A stretch of 64,000 bases of DNA from assembly GCF_009184395.1 (NCBI RefSeq), contig NZ_WEIC01000004.1:124001-188000 (forward strand), written 5' to 3'. Made by a program: the position numbers and the translations under genes. The notes beneath the pieces are model-generated. The model worked only from the letters and a program-made list of their open reading frames with translations, ran no database searches and had not been told where the DNA came from. Positions 5,888 through 61,359 of the stretch are shown piece by piece. How positions within the stretch are numbered: position 1 is the first letter of the stretch; each line of letters begins with the position of its first letter. Origin of the DNA: Amylibacter sp. SFDW26. GTDB lineage: Bacteria > Pseudomonadota > Alphaproteobacteria > Rhodobacterales > Rhodobacteraceae.

Positions 5888-7044
5888 TTTTCAACTTCGA
5901 AAATCAACCCAGCATTCGAACTCACACGTTTTATAATAGCGTCTCCGAATACAGGTGCTGGTGTTAAAATGCCACCATCAGCATTTGCAACGTCTTCCAA
6001 CAAGCATACGGCACATTCTGTAAGGACTTTGCATGTCGATCCATAACCTGGATCGCGGTCACCCTTAACTCCGACGATAAGGCGTTCGCCGTTTTCGGAT
6101 ACACCTGTAAACATCATATCGTAGCTGCCGTTTTCACGCTCTTCTTTAGATGGGCCGTCGCCAGGTTTTAAGTCACTTTGCCCTGCGATAGGGTCTGTAT
6201 CTGCGATGTGTTTTGCCATCGCTTCACCCTTTGGTCCAGGGCCTGTGAAAATCATTTCTTCATATGTAAAATCAGTGCCATACGGATGCCCCATCAACAT
6301 ATTAGAACGATGAACGTTTTTTGTATTCACAGGAGCCATGAAAAAAGGAGCAACCCATGAGCCAAGGTCGATATCTTCATATGGTTTATTTCCATAAGGT
6401 TGTTCAACGCCTTGAAAGCCTGGGGTTAGAGCGAAGGGTGAAAGCAATTTTTGCATGGTTTTGGGGTTGCTCATCGCAGCTTTCATAGTTGCGCGGCCTG
6501 ATGCAGCGGTTCCGCCAGAGAATGTGCCATTCAAGCTTCGTACACGACATCTGACATCTTTTAAGGGCGTACCAAAGCGTTTCGAAGCTTCGGCCTGTAG
6601 AAAGTACACACCCATATCGGATGGAACGCTGTCAAACCCACAAGAATGTACGATACGTGCACCAGATGCTTTGGCCACATCATTATACTTATCAATCATG
6701 TCCCACATAAAGGAAGGCTCGCCTGATAGGTCGACATAATCCGTACCCACTTTTGCGCAGGCTGCTACAAGTGGTTCACCATATAATTGATATGGCCCAA
6801 CAGTTGTGATGATCACTTTGGTTCGTTTGGCCATTGCTTCGATTGATATAGGATCGGACGCATCTGCGGTTACAAGAGCCGTATCACTTGGTAATCCCAT
6901 TTCATCACGTACCGCTATAAGCTTATCAAGGTTACGCCCAGCCATTGCCCATGGTCGGTTCGAGTAATTTGCATTGATGTATTCAGCAACCAAACGTCCT
7001 GTAAAACCAGTTGCACCATAAATAATAATGTCAAATTCAGCCAT
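5884..7044 (-). CDS. Saccharopine dehydrogenase NADP-binding domain protein (trans-acting enoyl reductase-like)
   Basis: The 386-residue protein opens with a Rossmann motif (IIYGATGFTGRLVAEYI, residues 6-22) and continues with TTVGPYQLYGEPLV and YVDLSGEPSFM. It also has SCGFDSVPSDMGVYFLQ, the signature shared by mycobacterial trans-acting enoyl reductases and eukaryotic SCCPDH-like proteins. Length matches that family (about 380-420). It is monocistronic and convergent with the LysR gene. Proximity to the acyl-CoA dehydrogenase operon suggests a lipid role, but this is inference. True saccharopine dehydrogenase is unlikely because lysine-pathway neighbours and the C-terminal domain are absent. 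Confidence 0.87.
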   Translation of the reverse strand: MAEFDIIIYGATGFTGRLVAEYINANYSNRPWAMAGRNLDKLIAVRDEMGLPSDTALVTADASDPISIEAMAKRTKVIITTVGPYQLYGEPLVAACAKVGTDYVDLSGEPSFMWDMIDKYNDVAKASGARIVHSCGFDSVPSDMGVYFLQAEASKRFGTPLKDVRCRVRSLNGTFSGGTAASGRATMKAAMSNPKTMQKLLSPFALTPGFQGVEQPYGNKPYEDIDLGSWVAPFFMAPVNTKNVHRSNMLMGHPYGTDFTYEEMIFTGPGPKGEAMAKHIADTDPIAGQSDLKPGDGPSKEERENGSYDMMFTGVSENGERLIVGVKGDRDPGYGSTCKVLTECAVCLLEDVANADGGILTPAPVFGDAIIKRVSSNAGLIFEVEN

Positions 7045-7421
7045 AATACGTCTCCCTATTGTAAATCAGGTTTATATAAACACTCTTTTAAGCCTAGTGT
7101 TACCTCACGTTATTTCACCATTTATAAATCATGAAAAATATAGCTAGCTAATTCTTTTGAGGGTATGAACCGTATATAAACCTGCGATATATTGCATGTC
7201 TAATCTGGAGCCCAGAAATGCTTTCGCGGCATCGTTCTAAAAACCACTATTTTGAATATTCTGAAACCGATAGGATTGATGAGTTCTGGTTGTAATAGCT
7301 TACTATTTTCGGCCAGTTATGGAAAAGAAAAAACACGTCCTCCAAACCTAATCTGAAGATATCAAGTCACACTAAAAATGAGAATACTGTCTGTTACATA
7401 TTAATGTTGTGTAATCCTAAG
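7045..7421. other. Intergenic region, AT-rich, no gene seen
   Basis: This gap separates the SCCPDH-like gene from the 3' end of the interrupted luxR frame. It is markedly AT-rich. A 25-codon ATG frame at 7218 has a plausible GGAG before it, but the encoded peptide has no recognisable feature. It presumably holds the promoter of the 5884-7044 gene on its left side. I saw no strong terminator or repeat. Confidence 0.5.
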
Positions 7422-8147
7422 TTACATAAAAATATGGTTTTCGGAGATTGCTTTTACGGCTGCTTGTGCACGGGTGTTTGCGTTTAATTTACTACAAGCA
7501 TTACTTATATAAAATGTGATTGTACGCTCTTTGAGATTTAGAATGTTCCCTATTTCCCAAGACGTTTTTCCGACTGAAACCTAATATAAAACCTCTTTTT
7601 CCCGTGGTGATAGTAGATTTTTCATGTCTTTGCGTGCTGTAATTTGAGAGCCAATAATTTCTTCATGAATAAGCATTCCAAAGTAAGGTAGATCTGGAAG
7701 TAAGTGTTGTTTTGTATAGGCCCAATCCTCTTCAGGCATGTCCGTTGATATAGAAAGAAGAGCTAGGTCTTCATAAGCACCGCGTATAGGAATGGTTATA
7801 CCTTTATGTGAAATTCCAAATTCAGAGGCTTCATTGAAAAAAACTTCATTTGTTGCACTTTGTTTTTTGATTTTGCACCAATCCAGAGGTAGAGATGATT
7901 TAACACCTTCAATGATTATCGGGTCATGATTATTATAGTTTCTTGAAAAATAATGATCTTCCCAATCTTCAGAGTATGTTGTGAACAGAATACGTTTTGA
8001 TACAATATCTTTGGGTGACCTGAGGCAAAAGTATGCAATATCTTTTATGCCAAAACTCGACACAAGTTTATTTAGAAAAACGCATTTTTTTTTGCTTCTC
8101 CGAAAGGCTTTGATATTCTTTGTAAGGGTTTCTGAAATTCGTTCCAT
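7422..8147 (-). pseudogene. luxR: LuxR-type autoinducer-binding regulator interrupted by one in-frame amber codon
   Basis: The frame from ATG 8147 encodes an autoinducer-binding domain with the conserved W and Y (WEDHYFSRNY), DP (NHDPII), a second W (LDWCK) and G (FGISHKGITIP) in order. It reaches LSPREKEVLY and then meets a TAG at 7581-7583. Beyond that stop, the same frame continues for 52 codons to a TAA at 7422-7424. Those codons spell an excellent LuxR HTH: VSVGKTSWEIGNILNLKERT, then ITFYISNACSKLNANTRAQA. Family members normally have tryptophan at exactly the stop position, so a single TGG-to-TAG change explains it. As read, the 188-residue product lacks DNA binding. Partner luxI lies 140 bp upstream on the same strand. 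A sequencing error or readthrough cannot be excluded. Confidence 0.85.
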
Positions 8148-8287
8148 CTGTCCTATTATGCCACCACATTGTGTTAAGAGATATTACCTAAGCTTACAGC
8201 AGATTCATGTAACACTTTAATGAATCGTATGAGCAGGCACATTTACGGCGGTAAAATGCTTATTTGTATACCTTAGGCTCTATTAAG

Positions 8288-8926
8288 TTAATTGATATGA
8301 TGCACTGGCTGTAAATTATCTAAATGCGACTTTTCTAATACATTTATATCTTTTGATATTTCGGCACCAAGATTATCTGAAACGTTAAACAGCCCTGCCA
8401 CTGTTTTTAAATCATCATATTTATGTACTGGACCAACACGCTTGAAGATACATCCTGCGCGGCGCAAAACACGTTCGACATAAATATCATAGACCGATAT
8501 TATATCCTTTATGCCTATTGCATTTGCAGTTGTGAATAATCCCGATAAGAGCTGGCTTGTAACAATGTTGATACCTTCGGAACCAAAGAATTTTGCAGCT
8601 TCGGTATCTACACAAAACCGCGAACTTTCTAGAACCAGATGATGCCGTATTATTTTTTTATCACCCATAACTTCAGGAAATACTTCTGATAACATGTGAG
8701 GCTTATTGGTTGGCAACAAGCGCAATGAAGCTAATAGCTTTCCTTTTTTTGAAACAACACAAATATAAAGCGGGTTTTGTTGGTCAAAATGATCGCGTTC
8801 CTGACCGTTTTTAACAACAACACGCCATCCTCTGCGCTCGCTAAATTGGCGAGCTCTCAGTTGGTACATTTGATCTAATATAGTCTGGTGCTTTTCAGTC
8901 TGTTTTGCGTAAATTGTTAGTAACAT
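8288..8926 (-). CDS. luxI: LuxI-family acyl-homoserine-lactone synthase
   Basis: The 212-residue protein has the invariant N-terminal residues of AHL synthases: R at RARQFSERRGW (about 24-34), then FDQQNPLYICVVSKKGKLLASLRLLP, which contains the D and the R of the core fold. Next come LSEVFP and a block ESSRFCV (about 101-107) with the conserved E and R. It makes N-acyl-homoserine lactones from SAM and acyl-ACP. The ATG at 8926 follows GGAGAAAA. A lux-box-like palindrome lies 51 bp upstream of the start. The luxR partner downstream on the same strand carries an amber codon, so autoinduction by the classical loop may be broken. Confidence 0.93.
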   Translation of the reverse strand: MLLTIYAKQTEKHQTILDQMYQLRARQFSERRGWRVVVKNGQERDHFDQQNPLYICVVSKKGKLLASLRLLPTNKPHMLSEVFPEVMGDKKIIRHHLVLESSRFCVDTEAAKFFGSEGINIVTSQLLSGLFTTANAIGIKDIISVYDIYVERVLRRAGCIFKRVGPVHKYDDLKTVAGLFNVSDNLGAEISKDINVLEKSHLDNLQPVHHIN

Positions 8927-9274
8927 TTTTTTTCTCCAATTTAGGTAAAATTGGAAAAGTGGCTGGGTAATGTCATTACTGTAAAAATACAGTACCGAAT
9001 TAAATGCTGATGTTATCTGTACTCGAAGCTTACTCCTGGGGGCTAGGCCTGCAATTTTCCGTTTAACTTCGGCAGTCGTTATTAATTACAAGATTGAACC
9101 TACTTATATTTGAGCCTTTGTGGAAACAACAATACGTAATTTCAACCGTAGTGTAACGCGATAGATATTGGAACACTTTAGTTTGTAGATGGATTGATAA
9201 TTTGAGTCGCGGCCTCTCTGCAATCGAATTGTCAGGTGCATCGCAACCGAAACAATAACCTCAAAGGTGACCCA
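8927..9274. other. Intergenic region between luxI and the divergent oxoamine synthase gene
   Basis: This gap of 348 bp holds the divergent promoters of luxI (minus) and the oxoamine synthase (plus). Its one clear element is the palindrome at 8977-8994, annotated separately. A GTG at 9236 could extend the synthase frame by 13 residues, but the ATG at 9275 has a better ribosome site. Confidence 0.5.
8977..8994. promoter_or_regulatory. Lux-box-like palindrome
   Basis: TACTGTAAAAATACAGTA is a 7-4-7 inverted repeat, 51 bp before the luxI start codon. The half-site CTGTA/TACAG is that of lux and tra boxes. Total length 18 bp equals the tra-box type of LuxR-family operators rather than the 20-bp Vibrio lux box. 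It is 281 bp from the divergent oxoamine synthase start and could serve both. Function is inferred from shape and position. Confidence 0.6.
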
Positions 9275-30868: not shown

Positions 30869-31606
30869 CTAAAGTTCATGACCATCAACCAAATGATCAT
30901 AGAGTGTGGTAAGAATACTTGTGCCTATTATCGACCATAAGCCATATAAAATATGAATGCAGACACCTGTTAGAATTGTGTCAAAATAAGCCCAATTCAA
31001 TTCTTGTAATGTCATAAAAGGTACAATGAAAATAATGCTTAACAGCCAAAGTGAGCGCGATATTTCTGCAGTACTATTCCAGGAAACTCCTAATGGAATG
31101 GAGCTACCTATTGCTGTTGCAGGAAGAACAAGGCCCAAACGAAAAGAATAGTAAGAGAAAATTACACAGAATAGTATTATGACTGGCATATCATATGCAT
31201 CGCTTCCATCATAATTCAGTGCAAAAAACAGGATTATAATCAGCGTGATCGGTAGACCTACAATAAGTGTGATTATTATACTTTTCCCAACATAACTTAA
31301 TATTCTACCGCCATGCCATTTAGGAAAAAATGCATTCGGTTGTTCTTGAAGTAAAATGAACCGATGCCACCCTATCAATACCCACAAAAAGAAAAGTGCC
31401 TCAATAATAATTGGTATTAAGAATTGTATGCCCTCTATGTCTTCCATTTGAAGACTCGTTGGAATTATTCTCCCGTGTTGGAGGAAATTGTATGTAAATT
31501 GTGTAAAGGTTACAATCAACCAAGGAAGCAAAGCGATACGTAAAACTATTGGAAAATTATTAATAAGCATTCTGTAGGAGTGTATTAATATCTTTAATGT
31601 CATCAA
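30869..31606 (-). CDS. Hypothetical integral membrane protein
   Basis: The 245-residue protein has about six hydrophobic segments (near residues 20-38, 64-82, 105-128, 139-160, 188-205, 212-235) and no recognised motif. A conserved-looking GWHRFILL after the second helix is the most distinctive piece. Similar proteins of unknown role occur in roseobacters. The gene is AT-rich compared with the dnaX operon beside it and stands alone between the SRP RNA and dnaX. Confidence 0.7.
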   Translation of the reverse strand: MMTLKILIHSYRMLINNFPIVLRIALLPWLIVTFTQFTYNFLQHGRIIPTSLQMEDIEGIQFLIPIIIEALFFLWVLIGWHRFILLQEQPNAFFPKWHGGRILSYVGKSIIITLIVGLPITLIIILFFALNYDGSDAYDMPVIILFCVIFSYYSFRLGLVLPATAIGSSIPLGVSWNSTAEISRSLWLLSIIFIVPFMTLQELNWAYFDTILTGVCIHILYGLWSIIGTSILTTLYDHLVDGHEL

Positions 31607-31876
31607 TGAATTCTTTCAAAATTATGAATTGGAAAACTATTTTTACTTCAGTTTGTCATTAAAGAATTAGTCTATTTTATGACATATTCCAACGGTTAAG
31701 GCTCCCCGTTATTTAGTGGAGTTGAATTGTGCGAATTAATTCTTTGTTGTGTTTTGAAGTGATTTAATATGCTGTCTCTGACAGCTCCTCAACTTTCCCT
31801 CTATTCTCCCAATCTTAATCTAGCATTTCCCCCAAACACTGAGTAATGTCTTTAAGATCATGGGAGCACCGACTTA

Positions 31877-33661
31877 ATGTCCAACGAATCTGAAAACGCT
31901 TATCAAGTCCTCGCGCGGAAATACCGTCCTGCGACTTTTGAGGATTTGATTGGGCAGGATGCTATGGTGCAGACGTTGCAAAATGCGTTTGAGGCGGATC
32001 GGATTGCCCATGCGTTTGTGATGACAGGTGTGCGCGGTGTGGGGAAAACCACGACGGCGCGGATTATTGCCAAGGGTATGAATTGTGTGGGGCCTGATGG
32101 GACAGGTGGGCCGACGATTGCACCTTGTGGAGTTTGTGATAACTGCGTTTCCATTGCAGATGGGCGCCATGTTGATGTGATGGAAATGGATGCCGCCAGC
32201 CGAACGGGTGTGGGCGATATTCGTGAGATTATTGACAGTGTGCATTACCGTGCGGCCTCTGCCAGATACAAGATTTACATCATTGATGAGGTTCACATGC
32301 TATCGACCAGTGCGTTTAATGCGCTGTTGAAAACGTTGGAAGAACCGCCAGAGCATGTGAAATTTATCTTTGCAACGACTGAAATTCGCAAAATTCCCGT
32401 TACGGTGATGTCGCGGTGTCAGCGGTTTGATTTGCGCCGTATCGAGCCAGAGGTGATGATCGCGCATTTGCAAAAGATTGCTGGGCTGGAAAATGCTGCC
32501 GTGGCTGAGGATGCTTTGGCCTTGATTACCCGTGCTGCAGAGGGTTCTGTGCGCGATGCGTTATCCCTATTGGATCAAGCGATTGCGCATGGGGCAGGGG
32601 AAACCTCGGTTGATCAAGTGCGGGCTATGTTGGGTTTGGCGGATCGTGGGCGTGTTTTAGACTTGTTTGATATGATCATGCGCGGTGATGCGGCGGGGGC
32701 GTTGAATGAGCTGTCTTCGCAATATGCCGAGGGCGCTGACCCTATGGCTGTGCTGCGCGATATGGCTGAGATTACCCATTGGGTTTCTGTGATTAAGCTG
32801 TCGCCCGATGCGGCAGAGGATCCGACGGTGGCACCTGATGAGCGGGAACGTGGGAAACAAGCGGCGATTGATTTGCCGATGCGGTCGTTGACGCGTATGT
32901 GGCAGATGCTGCTGAAAGCCTTGGAAGAGGTGGGTGCGGCACCCAATGCAATGATGGCAGCGGAAATGGCGATCATCCGTTTGACGCATGTGGCAGAACT
33001 GCCAAGTCCCGAAGAATTGGTGCGTAAGCTGCAAGATATGCCACCTGTGCCACCAACGGGTGGCGGCGGCGGTGCTGGTGCGCCTATGGGTGGTGGTGTT
33101 GAGGCTGCTGGTGCTTCGGTTTCTGTGTCTGGTACGGTTGGGACTGCACCAACGGCTATGGTTGCAGGCGGTGGGCAAGTTGCAGCGCCGCAATCCAATG
33201 CGGAAGTGGCTTTGGCGCGGTACACGGAATTTAACCATGTGATTGAGCTGATCAAATCACGTCGTGATATGAAGCTTTTGGTTGAAGTGGAAACATTTCT
33301 GCGGTTGGCGAAATATTCCCCAGGACGGATAGAGTTTCAGCCGACAGAAGATGCACCGAATGATTTGGCGACGCGGTTGTCGAACCGTTTGATGGCATGG
33401 ACGGGTGTGCGCTGGGGTGTCACTGTTGTGTCTGACGGTGGTAAGGCCACATTGGCAGAGGAACGTGCGGCACACCGTGATGATTTACAAGGTCAAGCGA
33501 TGCAGCATGATTTGGTGAAGGCGGTTTTGTTGGCGTTTCCAGGTGCCGAAATTCGCGATGTGAAAACATTAGAAGACATAAATGCGGCAACAGATGCAGC
33601 TGTGGAATATTTAGATACGGGCGAAGACGATGATGATTGGGACCCGTTTGATGATGATTAA
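31877..33661 (+). CDS. dnaX: DNA polymerase III subunit gamma/tau
   Basis: The 594-residue clamp-loader ATPase begins YQVLARKYRPATFEDLIGQ. It has Walker A GVRGVGKTTTAR (about residues 50-61), a four-cysteine zinc module including CGVCDNC, Walker B IIDEVHML (about 135-142), and sensor motifs SRCQRFDLRRI. A glycine/alanine-rich linker (about 395-440) leads to the tau-specific C-terminal domain ending in an acidic tail (GEDDDDWDPFDDD). I did not see an E. coli-style slippery heptamer. It forms an operon with ybaB and recR. Confidence 0.96.
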   Translation: MSNESENAYQVLARKYRPATFEDLIGQDAMVQTLQNAFEADRIAHAFVMTGVRGVGKTTTARIIAKGMNCVGPDGTGGPTIAPCGVCDNCVSIADGRHVDVMEMDAASRTGVGDIREIIDSVHYRAASARYKIYIIDEVHMLSTSAFNALLKTLEEPPEHVKFIFATTEIRKIPVTVMSRCQRFDLRRIEPEVMIAHLQKIAGLENAAVAEDALALITRAAEGSVRDALSLLDQAIAHGAGETSVDQVRAMLGLADRGRVLDLFDMIMRGDAAGALNELSSQYAEGADPMAVLRDMAEITHWVSVIKLSPDAAEDPTVAPDERERGKQAAIDLPMRSLTRMWQMLLKALEEVGAAPNAMMAAEMAIIRLTHVAELPSPEELVRKLQDMPPVPPTGGGGGAGAPMGGGVEAAGASVSVSGTVGTAPTAMVAGGGQVAAPQSNAEVALARYTEFNHVIELIKSRRDMKLLVEVETFLRLAKYSPGRIEFQPTEDAPNDLATRLSNRLMAWTGVRWGVTVVSDGGKATLAEERAAHRDDLQGQAMQHDLVKAVLLAFPGAEIRDVKTLEDINAATDAAVEYLDTGEDDDDWDPFDDD

Positions 33662-39092: not shown

Positions 39093-39536
39093 TTATGCCA
39101 CGGACAGACAGGCACATGTGGCCAAGTGGCTAACGCGTTGGCTGGTGCTGCCCAGAACCAAACTGCCAACGGCACCCAAGCCGCGACGACCTGTTATGAT
39201 CAGATCGGCACCGCAATCTTCGGCGCAATGCAGGATTTGATCGGCGGTGTTTCCGTGGGTCAAATGCGTTTCAACCTTTTTGCAGCCAGCACTGCCTGCG
39301 ATCTCTTCGCCGTTTTTTAACACGGCTTTTCCCGCTTCATCCATTTCCTCTTGGCGGGGTGAGGCGGCGACGGTTGCATAGCCTGTTGTGGCGCCTACAA
39401 CGACAACTGTTTCGGGTTCGGGGGTGTGCACCAGATGGATTTCCGATTTGTATTTCTTGCCCAAATCACAGGCCACGCGCAGGGCGTTTTCGGATGGGTC
39501 AGAGCCGTCTAGGCCAACGACGATTTTTTTAAACAT
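39093..39536 (-). CDS. Universal stress protein (UspA family)
   Basis: ATG 39536 (MFKKIVVGLDGSDPSENALRVACDLG) follows GGAGACCC; the longer frame to 39659 is not used. The 147-residue protein has the ATP-binding USP motif near its end: ITGRRGLGAVGSLVLGSTSQRVSHLATC (about 113-140). The G-2x-G-9x-G-S/T pattern places it with ATP-binding Usp proteins. An FNR-like box lies 59 bp upstream, so induction under low oxygen is likely. Confidence 0.93.
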   Translation of the reverse strand: MFKKIVVGLDGSDPSENALRVACDLGKKYKSEIHLVHTPEPETVVVVGATTGYATVAASPRQEEMDEAGKAVLKNGEEIAGSAGCKKVETHLTHGNTADQILHCAEDCGADLIITGRRGLGAVGSLVLGSTSQRVSHLATCACLSVA

Positions 39537-39681: not shown

Positions 39682-39882
39682 TCACCGAAACACCAAACGC
39701 AACCTGTTTCTGATCCGCACTTCGCCCATATTGGGCTGGTTTAGGAAAGCTTGGACCATGGGCATCAATGGATCGTCAGGATCAAGATGGCCTTCGTCGA
39801 AGAGCATTTGCATCACCAAGTGCCGTGTGCGTTTCGTAATATAGACGGTGTGCATAGCACTGCTGGTTGGAAATATCATCAT
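39682..39882 (-). CDS. Small hypothetical protein
   Basis: A 66-residue frame (MMIFPTSSAMHTVYITKRTRH...) without signal peptide. It has a helical middle (HLVMQMLFDEGHLDPDDPLMPMVQAFL) and a basic end (RIRNRLRLVFR). The nearest purine-rich site (GGGAGC) is rather far from the ATG. No family recognised; coding status is moderate. Confidence 0.4.
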   Translation of the reverse strand: MMIFPTSSAMHTVYITKRTRHLVMQMLFDEGHLDPDDPLMPMVQAFLNQPNMGEVRIRNRLRLVFR

Positions 39883-40251
39883 GGCGTAATTGCCGCTCCC
39901 TTAAATCAAATCATCAAATGAAAACGGCCGTCGGATGATCCGACAGCCGGGGAGTTCGTTAGCCGCTCAAACACGACTGCTATGACCTTTAGGCCGAAAC
40001 CCTGGACATACGTCATAACCTCCCCGACCATTAAATCGAGAAGGTATCATTTCAGCTGACACCAGCTGGTTTGAGAGGGGTAACGACACCCCGAGGCCAA
40101 CAATGCGCTGACCCTATGTGAGAGGATAAGCGAGGTTGGGGGCTAGGGGAAGGGGGAAGTTGTTAATAGGGAATATGAAAGATATCACAGTCTGATGCTG
40201 GCAAATTACCAGTCTGAAATAATGGGGATTCATATGTCCCTTTAGCAAAAG
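39883..40251. other. Gene-free stretch downstream of the reverse transcriptase
   Basis: No frame of useful size. The part 39925-40140 is GC-rich and dense in hairpins (annotated separately as a possible RNA). The part 40141-40251 next to the reverse transcriptase stop is AT-rich and shows nothing clear. Confidence 0.5.
39925..40140 (-). ncRNA. Putative structured RNA of unknown family
   Basis: Several complementary segments nest here. TATGAC (39981-39986) pairs with GTCATA (40012-40017). CGGGGAG (39948-39954) pairs with CTCCCCG (40020-40026) around it. CAGCTG-ACAC-CAGCTG lies near 40053-40068. GGGGT-AACGAC-ACCCC lies at 40077-40092. A terminator-like stem (39925-39949, one mismatch) is followed on the minus strand by TTTT, so minus is the likely sense. 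It lies on the same strand as, and just downstream of, the reverse transcriptase. I could not match it to tmRNA, 6S, RNase P or a known riboswitch. Confidence 0.35.
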
Positions 40252-41802
40252 TTAAATTGCAGAAGCTATAAGAGAATTTATCTCTGAATGTCCTTTCCAT
40301 GCTGTGCGCATTGTGGCTTTTTCTGCGGAAATAAAATACTGAGCTGAATATAGGATTGCTGCGCGTACATATGGGTCTTCATTGTCATATTTTGCTCGTA
40401 TAGCCCTCCTATCGCGCGCTGTACCAAACTTTGCTATAAATATTGCTGCTATCGCACGAGTCGCCGATCCCACCATTGGGCTATTAAACCATGTTGTTAC
40501 ATGGCGAACTGTCCTTGCATCAACACTTTCACAAGGCAAAACACCTGCCATATAGTACATTTTTTGATAATCTAAATGAAAACCATTCTTTCTAATAAGT
40601 TCTTCAATTCGATTTTGTACATCTAGATTTATTTTAGCAAAATGATTCAAATATGAAAAATACAGGCGAGTTAGATGTGGTCTAGAAATTAAACCATTAA
40701 AAGCACGTTCAACGCCATAATCATCTCCTGAAGCTCGTAAATATGGCAAGCAAAAACGGTCGATTTTTTCAGCTTGATCTTCACTCTCATAAACAAAATC
40801 TATTAGGCTTCTTACAGCGAGGAGTTCTATTTCATCGTCTTCATCTAAAGCGGCTTCGACATCATCAGAATTAATCCAATCTCCTTGAAAACCGTATCCA
40901 CCCTCTTCTACGAAATCTTTAATCGAATCTAGCTCATCTCGAGCCGCGTCAAACAATAAATCGACTTCTTTTTGTTCGAAAAGAAGATCTGATGCTTGAG
41001 TGATTTTTGTTTTATCGGGATTTAAGCTCAAACCTACTTTTCTTAAATCTTCAACCATTGAGTTGAGGTATGTCTTCGCTTGAAGTTCATCAGGAAAACC
41101 GACGTAAATGTCATCCACATATCTTGCCGATGCTAAGTTAGCTAAGCTAAAATTTGCGTCAAAATCAGTTAAGTAAAAGTTTCCAAGCACATCTGATGGG
41201 TAGACGCCCTGTATTATCCCTTGAGAACTTTTTTGTCTAAAAATAGATAAAACTTTTTCAAGCAGCCTGACGGCTTCAGTTCTACTTCCACAGCCTTCGA
41301 GAGCATTTATTAAATTATGCTGCGGCAAGGTTTCAAAGAAGTTCGCAACATCGCATTGCAATACAAAAGCGTTGTTACCACATATGCTTTCGATTTGTTC
41401 TTGGAACTGCCCCCAGCATTCGTGTGATGGTTTGAATAACTCTCCATCTTTATCTGAAGGTATGTGGCTAAAAGCAATATTTCTATCAAATTGAGATTCT
41501 ATTTGAGGCAACATGTCTTCTACTAGGCCTTGATATAACAACCTATCTTGAGGCAATAATATACTTCCTGGACGAGTTAGAATCCCCTTTTTGGGGACAC
41601 TTATAGTCATTGGGAGTTGTGGTTCATATGAACCCGATGTTAAAGCTGAACATAGTTGCTGTATTAATTCACCGCCTTTTTCTCGGTATATGACGTCTAG
41701 GTGAGGTGAAAGGATGAAATCTGTACGGCTATCTACTGCAATATTTTTAATTGCTGATGACCATTCAATTTCTTTTACAACAGTTTTGTCCAAGCCAGGC
41801 AT
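40252..41802 (-). CDS. Reverse transcriptase, unknown-group/defence-associated (DRT-like)
   Basis: From ATG 41802 (site GGAAG) this is a 516-residue protein. RT motifs are in order: a fingers region with RPGSILLPQDRLLYQGL (about 78-94), motif A LQCDVANFFETLP (catalytic D151), motif B GIIQGVYPSDVLGN (about 195-208), motif C ARYVDDIYVG (YVDD at 228-231) and motif D LSLNPDKTKI. After about residue 280 follows a 230-residue acidic then helical, HEAT-like region ending GSATRAIAAIFIAKFGTARDRR. No maturase or HNH domain is present, and no intron or retron msr-msd is evident. This resembles the UG/Abi-type RTs used in phage defence. The gene is AT-rich against its neighbours, which suggests transfer. 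Confidence 0.9.
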   Translation of the reverse strand: MPGLDKTVVKEIEWSSAIKNIAVDSRTDFILSPHLDVIYREKGGELIQQLCSALTSGSYEPQLPMTISVPKKGILTRPGSILLPQDRLLYQGLVEDMLPQIESQFDRNIAFSHIPSDKDGELFKPSHECWGQFQEQIESICGNNAFVLQCDVANFFETLPQHNLINALEGCGSRTEAVRLLEKVLSIFRQKSSQGIIQGVYPSDVLGNFYLTDFDANFSLANLASARYVDDIYVGFPDELQAKTYLNSMVEDLRKVGLSLNPDKTKITQASDLLFEQKEVDLLFDAARDELDSIKDFVEEGGYGFQGDWINSDDVEAALDEDDEIELLAVRSLIDFVYESEDQAEKIDRFCLPYLRASGDDYGVERAFNGLISRPHLTRLYFSYLNHFAKINLDVQNRIEELIRKNGFHLDYQKMYYMAGVLPCESVDARTVRHVTTWFNSPMVGSATRAIAAIFIAKFGTARDRRAIRAKYDNEDPYVRAAILYSAQYFISAEKATMRTAWKGHSEINSLIASAI

Positions 41803-41807
41803 AAGTA

Positions 41808-41838
41808 CTTCCAAATATAAATAAAATATATTTGGAAG
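41808..41838 (-). promoter_or_regulatory. Inverted repeat covering the reverse transcriptase ribosome-binding site
   Basis: CTTCCAAATATA (41808-41819) and TATATTTGGAAG (41827-41838) are perfect reverse complements with a 7-base loop. In the mRNA sense the downstream arm ends in GGAAG, the ribosome site, five bases before ATG 41802. A folded hairpin would hide that site. Confidence 0.7.
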
Positions 41839-41910: not shown

Positions 41911-43566
41911 TTACCGAGTAAACTTCTTATATTTCACCCGTGTTGGCTCCAATGCGTCTGGCCCCAGTCTACGTTTCTTGTCTTCTTCGTAGTCTTCAAA
42001 GTTGCCTTCGAACCATTCGACGTGGCTGTTGCCCTCGAACGCCAGCATGTGGGTACATATGCGGTCTAGGAAAAAGCGGTCGTGGGAAATGACCACGGCG
42101 CAGCCTGCGAAGTCGCTGATGGCGGCCTCTAATGCGCTGAGTGTTTCGACGTCCAGATCGTTTGTTGGCTCGTCGAGCAGCAATACGTTTCCGCCGTCTT
42201 TCAGCAATTTCGCCATGTGGACACGGTTGCGTTCACCGCCTGACAACAGGCCAAGTGGTTTTTGTTGATCGCCGCCTTTGAAGTTGAACGACGAGCAATA
42301 GGCGCGGCTGTTCATTTCGGCGTCGCCTAACATGATGATGTCTTGGCCACCGCTGATTTCATCCCATACGGTTTTTTTGTCGTCCAGCGCATCGCGGGAT
42401 TGGTCGACGTAGGAGAGTTTGACTGTATCGCCCAGCTCGATTGTGCCGCTGTCAGGGGTTTCTTGGCCTGTGAGCATGCGGAAGAGGGTGGATTTACCCG
42501 CGCCGTTGGGGCCGATGACGCCGACGATACCGCCCGGTGGGAGGGAGAAGGACAGGTTGTCGATCAAAAGGTTATCGCCGTAAGCTTTGGAAATGCCGTT
42601 CACATCGATCGCTTTGTTGCCCAGACGAGGGCCGTTCGGGATGATGATCTGGGCTTTGCCGATTTTATCGAGTTCGGATTGGCCTGCCAGTTCGTTATAG
42701 GCGTTGATACGCGCCTTTTGTTTGGCTTGGCGGGCTTTTTGACCACGGCGCATCCATTCCAATTCGCGTGCGAGTGTTTTGGATTTGGATTTGTCTTCGC
42801 GGGCTTCTTGTTCCATGCGTTTGGCTTTTTGTTCCAGCCATGCAGAGTAGTTGCCTTCGTATGGGATGCCGCGACCGCGGTCGAGTTCAAGAATCCATGA
42901 TGTGATGCTATCAAGGAAGTAGCGGTCGTGGGTGACGATCAGGCAGGTGCCTTTGTAATCGATCAGGTGGTTTTGCAGCCATGCGATTGTTTCAGCGTCA
43001 AGGTGGTTGGTCGGCTCGTCGAGGAGCAGCATGTCTGGTTTTTCTAAGAGCAGTTTACACAGGGCAACGCGGCGGCGTTCACCGCCTGAAAGGGTTGCTG
43101 TGTCTGCGTCATCTGCGGGGCAACGTAGGGCTTCCATCGCGATGTCGATGGATGCGTCTAGGTTCCACAGGTCGTCTGCATCGATTTCATCTTGAAGTTT
43201 GGCCATTTCATCGGCGGTTTCTTCGGAGTAGTTCATCGCCAATTCGTTGTATTTGTCGAGGATGGCTTTTTTCTCGGCCACGGCCAGCATGACGTTATCG
43301 CGTACGTTTAAGCTGTCGTCCAATTCAGGTTCTTGGGACAGGTAGCCGATTGTAGCCCCTTTGGCGGCCCATGCTTCACCGCTGAAGTCTTTGTCTTGGC
43401 CTGACATGATGCGCATGAGGGTGGATTTACCTGTGCCGTTCACACCGACAACGCCGATTTTTACGCCTGGGAGGAAGGACAGATGGATGTTCTCAAAGCA
43501 TTTCTTGCCACCTGGGTAAGTTTTGGAAACGCCTTCCATGTGGTATACGTATTGATAAGATGCCAT
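41911..43566 (-). CDS. ettA: Energy-dependent translational throttle protein
   Basis: The 551-residue ABC-F protein has two ATPase domains: Walker A GVNGTGKST (about residue 39) with LSGGERRRV and LLLDEPTNHLD, and GPNGAGKST (about 353) with LSGGERNRVH and LLLDEPTNDLD. The charged linker and EttA-type start YQYVYHMEGVSKTYPGGKK identify the subfamily. It binds the ribosomal E site and gates elongation by ADP/ATP ratio. High GC and regular codon use fit a well-expressed core gene. Confidence 0.95.
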   Translation of the reverse strand: MASYQYVYHMEGVSKTYPGGKKCFENIHLSFLPGVKIGVVGVNGTGKSTLMRIMSGQDKDFSGEAWAAKGATIGYLSQEPELDDSLNVRDNVMLAVAEKKAILDKYNELAMNYSEETADEMAKLQDEIDADDLWNLDASIDIAMEALRCPADDADTATLSGGERRRVALCKLLLEKPDMLLLDEPTNHLDAETIAWLQNHLIDYKGTCLIVTHDRYFLDSITSWILELDRGRGIPYEGNYSAWLEQKAKRMEQEAREDKSKSKTLARELEWMRRGQKARQAKQKARINAYNELAGQSELDKIGKAQIIIPNGPRLGNKAIDVNGISKAYGDNLLIDNLSFSLPPGGIVGVIGPNGAGKSTLFRMLTGQETPDSGTIELGDTVKLSYVDQSRDALDDKKTVWDEISGGQDIIMLGDAEMNSRAYCSSFNFKGGDQQKPLGLLSGGERNRVHMAKLLKDGGNVLLLDEPTNDLDVETLSALEAAISDFAGCAVVISHDRFFLDRICTHMLAFEGNSHVEWFEGNFEDYEEDKKRRLGPDALEPTRVKYKKFTR

Positions 43567-60366: not shown

Positions 60367-61182
60367 TTATCCTTTTGCGCCATTCGTAGGCCAATCGTGC
60401 GTTTCATCCGAGGCATCACGGGTCCAACGATAGAAGGCATCATATAGCAGCATACCTGCATCCAGTTGCGCGATATCATCTTTGTACATGCGTGACAGCC
60501 CTAAAGAAGCTGCCATCAGGCCTGCCGCTTCTGGTGCGATGTCATGGCGGTCTGTGTCTGCACCGCGTACGATTGTTGCGAGTCTTTTTAGGGCAGGGAT
60601 TTTGAGATCGAATTCTGTGACCATTTTATCAAATGTGCAGGCGTCACCATCGTGTGTCCAAAAACAATCTTCGACGTCAAACGGTGTGGCGTTGAATTTT
60701 TCAGAGACGTTTAGGACTTGGGATGGTGAAACGAATAGAAACTTTGCCTTTGGGTCGATGAAACGGCGGATCAACCATGGGCAGGCGATGCGGTCTATTT
60801 TTGGGCGGTGGCGTGTCACCCATAGGGTGCTGCCATCAGGTTGAAAAGGTACCTTATTTGTGGGGATTAGGGGAAGGTTAGCATCACGCCAACCGACGAT
60901 GCCACCTTGGACGGTTTCGCATTGAATGCCGTGGTGACGTAACAATGCAGCGGCACCTTGGCTGAGTTTTAGACCTTTGTGGCATATCAGGACGGTCTTC
61001 TGTCCTTGTAGTTCTGGAATGAGTTCTTCGATTTTGGTGAAACAATGACGACGTGCACTTGGGATCAGGCGGGGGTCTTGGTTGAAATCTTCGTCGGTGC
61101 AGACGTCGATGATGATTGGGCAGTCTGGGGTGCCGATTAGACGGTTCAGTTGGCTTGGTGTGATTTCTGTTGGGGCGGGCAT
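60367..61182 (-). CDS. chrB: Chromate resistance protein ChrB with N-terminal rhodanese domain
   Basis: The 271-residue protein combines a rhodanese-like domain (PIIIDVCTDEDF; cysteine in VLICHKGLKLSQGAA, about residues 83-97) with a ChrB C-terminal domain (WVTRHRPKIDRIACPWLIRRFID, about 119-141, and EDCFWTHDGDACTFDKM). ChrB regulates or supports ChrA. The fused rhodanese part is a known variant and may make it a chromate-responsive sulfurtransferase. ATG 61182 follows GGAAGGATG. Confidence 0.92.
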   Translation of the reverse strand: MPAPTEITPSQLNRLIGTPDCPIIIDVCTDEDFNQDPRLIPSARRHCFTKIEELIPELQGQKTVLICHKGLKLSQGAAALLRHHGIQCETVQGGIVGWRDANLPLIPTNKVPFQPDGSTLWVTRHRPKIDRIACPWLIRRFIDPKAKFLFVSPSQVLNVSEKFNATPFDVEDCFWTHDGDACTFDKMVTEFDLKIPALKRLATIVRGADTDRHDIAPEAAGLMAASLGLSRMYKDDIAQLDAGMLLYDAFYRWTRDASDETHDWPTNGAKG

Positions 61183-61359
61183 AGCGCATCCTTCCTTTGG
61201 TTAGGGTTATCGGATGCGAAACTTGGGCTGGCGCCTCACGGGGCATTCGCGGTCCCCATGTAGGCAGTTTTTACAGAATATGGTCTTTCGTCAAGGGGGA
61301 GGATTTGACAGCTAGCATTTTAAAACTAATTTTAAACGGTATCGTGTGGAGGGAAAGTT

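Follow-up and report, generated by a model that had tools for sequence, protein, structure and literature searches.

UG classes of reverse transcriptases (RTs) were reportedly defined by Mestre et al. in 2022, and the described family closest to the gene reported here is RT_UG20 of PADLOC (PDLC03758, UG/Abi RTs), on whose function a single search of the open literature found no study. Class 1 systems typically carry an alphaRep domain, and those that have been studied need no nucleic acid template, according to PMC13174585. In PMC11077055, the priming tyrosines of AbiA lie in a loop between the RT and helical domains and those of AbiK in the fingers, and PMC13213688 describes single-gene DRT4 as making random ssDNA that is toxic upon infection. 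A second described element of relevance is sRNA-Xcc1 (RF02221), which precedes symE in the most widespread integron cassette of Xanthomonas (PMC12444791); the title of reference 82 of that paper calls it integron-encoded and transposon- and plasmid-transferred. We analysed a window of 64,000 nucleotides (the whole stretch of DNA under study) from Amylibacter sp. SFDW26, and our main reading, to which we attach a probability of roughly 0.6, is that it holds a single-gene UG20 antiphage RT, carried as exchangeable cargo by a variable slot that has ettA on one side and a dispersed RNA element on the other.

The initial annotation had listed motif A (D151), a QG-containing motif B and a YVDD motif C, in that order, and the translation puts them at residues 151, 198-199 and 228-231. 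The open reading frame can also be read from a TTG start (40252..41814, minus strand); the ATG at 41802 is preferred here. The features of the gene are as follows:

40252..41802, minus strand: UG20-type RT gene, 516 aa from the ATG, stop codon included
41350..41352, minus strand: motif A, catalytic Asp151 (translation; invariant in 8 UG20 sequences)
41206..41211, minus strand: motif B, QG, residues 198-199 (translation; invariant in 8 UG20 sequences)
41110..41121, minus strand: motif C, YVDD, residues 228-231 (translation; invariant in 8 UG20 sequences)
40876..40896, minus strand: acidic-linker motif YGFQ-x-x-W, residues 303-309 (Y303, G304, F305, Q306 and W309 invariant in 8 UG20 sequences)
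40255..40833, minus strand: predicted helical alphaRep/HEAT-like C-terminal domain, about residues 324-516 (AlphaFold2 secondary structure and alphaRep profile match)
41808..41838, no strand: perfect 12-bp AT-rich inverted repeat directly upstream of the RT start (sequence)

The linker motif of the window RT reads YGFQGDW. The gene is AT-rich beside ettA, as had been noted by eye, with a GC content of 38.2% (GC3 26.9%) vs 53.2% (GC3 63.0%) for ettA and 45.2% for the whole window. Elsewhere in the window, low-GC stretches (35-37%) at 7001-9000 and 31001-32000 may be further acquired islands, and a chrB-a RNA (a known cis-regulatory RNA family) scores above its cut-off at 61180-61262 (minus strand). 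The inverted repeat at 41808-41838 is a possible operator or terminator, judging by its sequence. It is a private AT-rich palindrome that causes the fold z of -3.17 of the region upstream of the RT; not being seen upstream of the UG20 orthologs compared, it was rejected as an RT-linked feature, and the corresponding regions of four orthologs show no excess of folding over shuffled sequence (z +1.12, -0.26, +2.21 and -1.02).

The initial annotation had called the protein a UG/DRT-type RT and could not assign a UG class by eye. Comparison with the PADLOC profiles, for which no curated cut-off is supplied, puts RT_UG20 first at 682.7 bits, the match covering all 511 positions of the profile; this score is far beyond chance and about 456 bits ahead of every other family. 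The runners-up are UG21 (226.3), Drt8 (181.3), UG22 (166) and UG19 (147.6 bits), with further side-scores for Drt5 (69.6), UG17 (66.9), Drt3a (62.3) and Drt4 (54.2 bits); AbiK is not among the best 25 of the 85 families, and the side-scores give no preference to Class 1. The window RT resembles RT_UG20 in its full-length match, its motifs, its RT plus helical C-terminus and its single gene, and we regard its identity as a UG20 RT as practically certain. The Pfam model RVT_1 scores above its threshold (54.2 vs 29.6 bits), and the gene is the sole RVT_1 match in its genome at E 0.001. That it might be the RT of a group II intron, a retron or another mobile element is suggested by its best NCBIfam match, a group II maturase model at 86.5 bits (cut-off 300), and by PDB matches led by retron-type and group II RT chains, which also head the profile matches of the RT half at 50.9 bits and below. 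None of the nine NCBIfam models listed reaches its own cut-off, however, and the lead of RT_UG20 over all PADLOC families and its separation in the tree from two group II rows both speak against such an origin. Maturase, HNH and integrase families, reported missing by the initial annotation, have no match at cut-off in the RT (Pfam and NCBIfam scans); Rfam gives no intron RNA at gathering score within the window and nothing at that score in the 5-kb stretch around the gene. A mobile-element RT is therefore scarcely credible, and for group II the reading is already contradicted.

The tree was built from 23 RT domains (237 columns), with no named retron included and DRT4 absent. Nine UG20 rows form one group (support 87/92), within which the window RT and four Rhodobacterales orthologs make up a subclade (98/99), and the UG rows split from the group II (two rows), RT-Cas1 and phage RT rows at 96/91. 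The comparison with group II and retron clades that had been proposed as a check thus places the protein outside group II, the retron side being judged by family scores (St85 retron RT model 35.1 bits, below its cut-off of 235). UG21 and DRT8, the next-best families over nearly the whole length, are yet not joined to UG20. AbiK, Drt3b and two Drt6 cluster at 97/96, as the one well-supported group of Class 1 type, with UG20 outside; the tree, which has many long end branches and drew long-branch warnings, gives no firm position of UG20 relative to other UG classes and no firm order of the UG groups. An RT domain that falls with AbiK, Drt3b and their relatives defines the Class 1 clade, and UG20 does not show this placement. 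Because the AbiK-Drt3b-Drt6 group excludes UG20, we infer that it should not be filed as Class 1, just as Class 1-like in its working.

The helical C-terminal extension described by the initial annotation is supported by structure prediction and by a profile match. The polymerase half stops near residue 272 and is followed by a helix and acidic linker and then by a helical region. AlphaFold2 on five sequences gave a model of the RT too poor for a fold search (mean pLDDT 46.7), but one that shows 12 helices beyond the linker, starting at residue 324 and better modelled over 331-400 and 431-480. A profile of 8 UG20 proteins over residues 349-486 matches a designed alphaRep protein in PDB (E 2.1e-4), so that an alphaRep/HEAT-like C-terminal domain, a typical trait of Class 1 UG RTs, is predicted to be present. 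Against the same family profile, the Abi/DRT chains of PDB score highest for AbiK (42.1 bits), Drt3a (29.9 bits) and 7r08, which we take to be Abi-P2 (29.2 bits). Lower matches are UG15 (26.2 bits), chain 9ioa (23.7 bits; DRT9 by the PDB codes in PMC12483538) and Drt2 (19.7 bits).

A defence role of the UG20 RT is likely by analogy, given its family and neighbourhood. UG20 is like the untemplated enzymes of Class 1 type (AbiK, DRT4, DRT6) in its one-gene RT plus alphaRep-type domain with no RNA gene seen, and differs from AbiK and DRT6 in that its RT domain falls outside their group. Because this layout resembles that of the single-gene enzymes, and from what is described in PMC13174585, PMC11077055 and PMC13213688, untemplated protein-primed chemistry may be expected at about even odds. 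The enzyme would polymerise DNA without an RNA template, and synthesis would start from a hydroxyl of the RT protein itself, most likely that of Tyr303 in the acidic linker between the polymerase and helical domains. Tyr303 is a tentative candidate for the primer because the AbiA priming loop holds the same inter-domain position; eight other tyrosines are also invariant across the 8 UG20 proteins. The product would be held by an oligomer assembled through the alphaRep domain; with so poor a structure model, both this oligomerisation and the reach of Tyr303 are guesses. Upon infection, a DNA or DNA-protein product would accumulate and could sequester phage or host DNA-binding factors so that phage growth stops, as proposed for AbiK-type and DRT4-type enzymes.

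UG20 is sparsely distributed. A pattern scan of genome contigs (5 loci) gave four orthologs with 64-67% identity, in Pseudophaeobacter, Pseudosulfitobacter, Pararhodobacter and Tateyamaria; L016 was not counted as UG20 (28% identity over 107 residues). Three plasmid records reach at least 80% coverage, from Rhizobium acidisoli (43% identity), Candidatus Manganitrophus (33%) and Sinorhizobium medicae (33%). Whole-genome searches, with the window's own genome counted each time, found UG20 in 2 of 385 genomes for the class and in 2 of 398 for the phylum. No ortholog was found in the 32 other genomes of the genus (part of a set of 101 relatives, some incomplete), two of which gave just distant RT matches (20-23% identity), and the RT matches at E 0.001 in 10 of the 101 relatives are, apart from the window's own, all partial and 20-30% identical. 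Seven RT-like ORFs were extracted from relatives and the five given to PADLOC comprise two Drt8, one Drt5, one UG13a and one RT-Cas1; two RT-like ORFs of L007 lie outside both the PADLOC scan and the tree. Three protein queries found no viral relative in IMG/VR, the 20 loci from the alignment query being rejected as distant RTs (21-34% over part of the query), and none of the 10 GenBank phage records matched spans 80% of the RT query. Because no same-genus ortholog was found, UG20 occurs in so few class genomes and the composition is anomalous, the gene looks, on sequence grounds, horizontally gained, which agrees with the initial annotation. Conserved presence at this site across the order with a housekeeping role, named there as one of the findings that would count against it, was not found.

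The alignment of 8 UG20 proteins (A1; seven of them 34-67% identical to the window RT) is invariant at 116 positions, which include the catalytic residues and Y303-G-F-Q-x-x-W. The window RT and its Rhodobacterales homologs differ from the three other aligned proteins (34-35% identity), which have an insert of 13-14 residues ahead of the RPGSIL motif and an N-terminal extension of 8 residues, the latter in two of the three as cut. The Rhizobium acidisoli protein (L018), intermediate at 43% identity to the window RT, was excluded from the alignment and the tree since its gene matched in two pieces. This plasmid gene (L018:8001-9552) is annotated on its 3' part alone, which suggests a frameshift.

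The neighbours of UG20 genes vary between loci. In the PADLOC scan, L018 adjoins SIR2, HerA, DarG and DarT-like proteins, and L112 a type II methylase, a DpdB-like and a mad2-like protein; L019 sits among annotated toxin-antitoxin-type genes and, judged by eye, phage tail-type ORFs come after L015. The single scanned neighbour of each of L012, L013 and L015 has no PADLOC match, and the neighbours of L014, L019, L020 and L113 lie outside the scan. Some loci, then, show no defence neighbour among the ORFs examined, and the L018 copy, in two pieces and partly annotated, hints that some copies may decay, as might be expected of a degenerate or domesticated RT with a non-defence role (e.g., repair) that came to lie in a variable slot by chance. 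Such a role is nevertheless improbable, with the reading frame and catalytic motifs intact in all 8 aligned proteins, a spread (2/385 and 2/398 genomes) ill-suited to housekeeping, and defence genes adjoining L018 and L112.

The slot and its RNA border are the unexpected part of the finding, and an antiphage RT as interchangeable cargo fits the way this slot is occupied. Its features are:

41911..43566, minus strand: ettA, conserved upstream border of the slot
39890..40167, minus strand: dispersed structured RNA at the far border of the slot, about 270 nt (core 39948-40094)
39921..39949, minus strand: terminator-like hairpin plus T-run ending the RNA element (sequence; paired in the consensus fold)
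39682..39882, minus strand: 66-aa ORF after the RNA element (no Pfam match)
39093..39533, minus strand: universal stress protein gene (Pfam Usp), backbone beyond the slot here and in the sister genome G032
C7 3751-4018, 50096-50362, 115611-115871 and 163890-164251, and C8 190448-190642: RNA copies in the window's genome (G000)

An insertion beside ettA had been proposed from the sequence, and comparison of the locus across relatives supports it, the slot holding other genes or none. G032 carries a DUF2806 gene, unrelated to the RT, in the same slot (an 81-aa ORF there was left out of the scans), G020 a DarT and G001 a MauJ-like protein, with matches below cut-off to DUF3800 in G006 and to PIN in G035 (another genus). 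A universal stress protein gene follows ettA after 229 and 286 bp in two of 30 loci (G013 and G009); the other 28 have none within the flank (short in two), nor have G020, G014, G006 and G001 in longer stretches. Because the same stress gene lies beyond the insert in the window and in G032, G013 and G009 come closest to an unoccupied site.

Copies of the RNA element number five in the window's genome, five in G032, nine in G024, three in G025 and one (weak) in G006, with short weak matches in G061 and G069, and 5 of the 33 genomes of the genus carry the core pattern (0 for the reversed control). Searches with the model R1 found the RNA in 12 of 295 genomes for the family and in 13 of 299 for the phylum (the window's own is counted each time), with a patchy spread in Pseudomonadota; an exact-pattern search of IMG/VR did not find the element. 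Twenty-one of 22 copies (alignment A3; L089 left out as truncated) share a fold of 67 pairs, 28 of them with two-sided change. In the core, 98.7% of cells pair (88.3% in shuffles), and two-sided change affects 23 pairs, a level that 0 of 500 shuffles reach; these shuffle numbers are optimistic, the sequences being related, and sliding the partners abolishes the signal. The terminator-like hairpin is followed in most copies by a small ORF, and a TxYxTxKT...DDP...IRIRN pattern is common to the small ORFs behind several other copies; for the 66-aa ORF of the window, a fold search (pLDDT 64.4) gave no meaningful PDB match (best E 0.9).

Rfam sRNA-Xcc1, at E 1 or better, gives 16 hits in 7 of 11 genomes, 15 of them on R1 elements, and no hit at that level in the window's genome or G032; 2 of 14 control genomes also give sub-cut-off hits, and the Rfam matches of the window's own copy (E 0.59-4.1) were taken as chance. 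Because the best score, found in relatives, is 33.3 bits vs a gathering score of 53, the element, judged by its sequence, is a distant relative of sRNA-Xcc1 and not a member. A mobile context is common to both RNAs, and the window RNA differs in a longer 5' part and in the ORF of about 66 aa in place of symE.

This strongly structured RNA of about 270 nt, directly 3' of the RT and on the same strand, raises the question of whether UG20 could instead be an RNA-templated (Class 2-like) RT whose template lies in its flanks. DRT3 does have a downstream ncRNA (PMC13174585), and the UG20 RT domain lies outside the AbiK/Drt3b/Drt6 group. But the element has five copies in this genome and occurs in same-genus genomes that have no UG20 ortholog, it resembles sRNA-Xcc1, and it gave 0 matches in the 191,926 bases searched at 13 loci, nine of them other UG20 loci and four ettA loci. 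Conservation of the flanks points the same way. In the two closest UG20 pairs, DNA similarity stops 1-7 nt past the stop codon and reaches 39-112 nt ahead of the aligned start, a stretch to which the coding N-terminal extension contributes in the second pair, and the sole other flank match among nine UG20 loci, 21 nt between the downstream flanks of L018 and L113, was taken as chance. A conserved cis ncRNA, the Class 2 criterion, was not found beside the UG20 loci compared, a comparison of few close pairs in which a small or fast-evolving RNA could be missed. Given the five copies, the end of flank conservation at the gene and the absence around other UG20 loci, the neighbouring RNA is unlikely as the RT's template and is probably not part of the RT system, and we consider an RNA-templated UG20 quite unlikely overall.

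The genes next to the RNA are different in the window's genome and in G032 at all five sites (G032 equivalents L071-L075). A collinear stretch of 267 kb shared with G032 has 29 variable gaps of at least 300 bp, 15 with differing content in both genomes, and all four RNA elements within it abut a gap of this kind, similarity resuming at the 5' edge of the element; the chance of this was estimated at 2e-6, a rough value that treats the elements as random intergenic points with a 12% intergenic fraction. The fifth pair of sites, on another contig, has variable genes on its 3' side. By eye, one RNA site lies inside an apparent S10 ribosomal operon, between rplB and rplW. The slot genes here are the UG20 RT, TIR_2, RmrA, RmrT, PDC-M36A and a 254-aa protein without a match over cut-off, and those in G032 are Drt6 (376 bits), an AHJR-like nuclease with RusA, DUF2806, an unassigned 292-aa protein and small ORFs. 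The Drt6 RT of G032 (L072:2257-3891, plus strand) lies at the yidD-side RNA site, where the window's genome has a TIR-domain protein.

At the four collinear sites, 4 of 10 scanned slot proteins match PADLOC at 1e-10 (UG20, RmrT, RmrA and Drt6), compared with apparently 3 or 4 of 70 control proteins from RNA-free variable gaps (proteins of at least 120 aa, 70 of 71 scanned, one 2,960-aa ORF left out). Of the 13 families listed for the controls, 11 trace to one helicase, the rest being mad3 (2 members) and CSD_V (1). The Fisher test (p 0.004 for 3 control matches and 0.012 for 5) is small and after the fact, covering two genomes and hand-picked slot proteins, and two of the three small ORFs at L075 were left out of the scans. 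As a general marker of defence genes, the RNA is not supported: G024 and G025 lack a clear pattern, the neighbours of the nine G024 copies being mostly ordinary by eye (with HTH-type ORFs at L141 and L142) and the three G025 copies showing no evident defence neighbour by eye. Copies of a mobile sRNA-Xcc1-like RNA with an ORF of about 66 aa might nonetheless act as fixed landing marks at whose 5' edge genes, many of them antiphage (UG20 RT, Drt6, TIR, RmrA/RmrT and the AHJR-like nuclease), are repeatedly replaced. We put forward this gene-capture arrangement, which would be an unrecognised one, as a speculation that is rather doubtful.

UG20 is a candidate defence class, and the window provides a divergent, compact, single-gene member of it that comes with a specific prediction, namely protein priming from Tyr303 without RNA. 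Sister genomes with different genes, several of them of defence type, at fixed positions bordered by an RNA with kinship to an integron-associated sRNA point to a possible route for swapping immune genes. If the gene-capture arrangement is true, it would be a dispersed, integrase-less counterpart of the integron defence library, with the RT as one payload.
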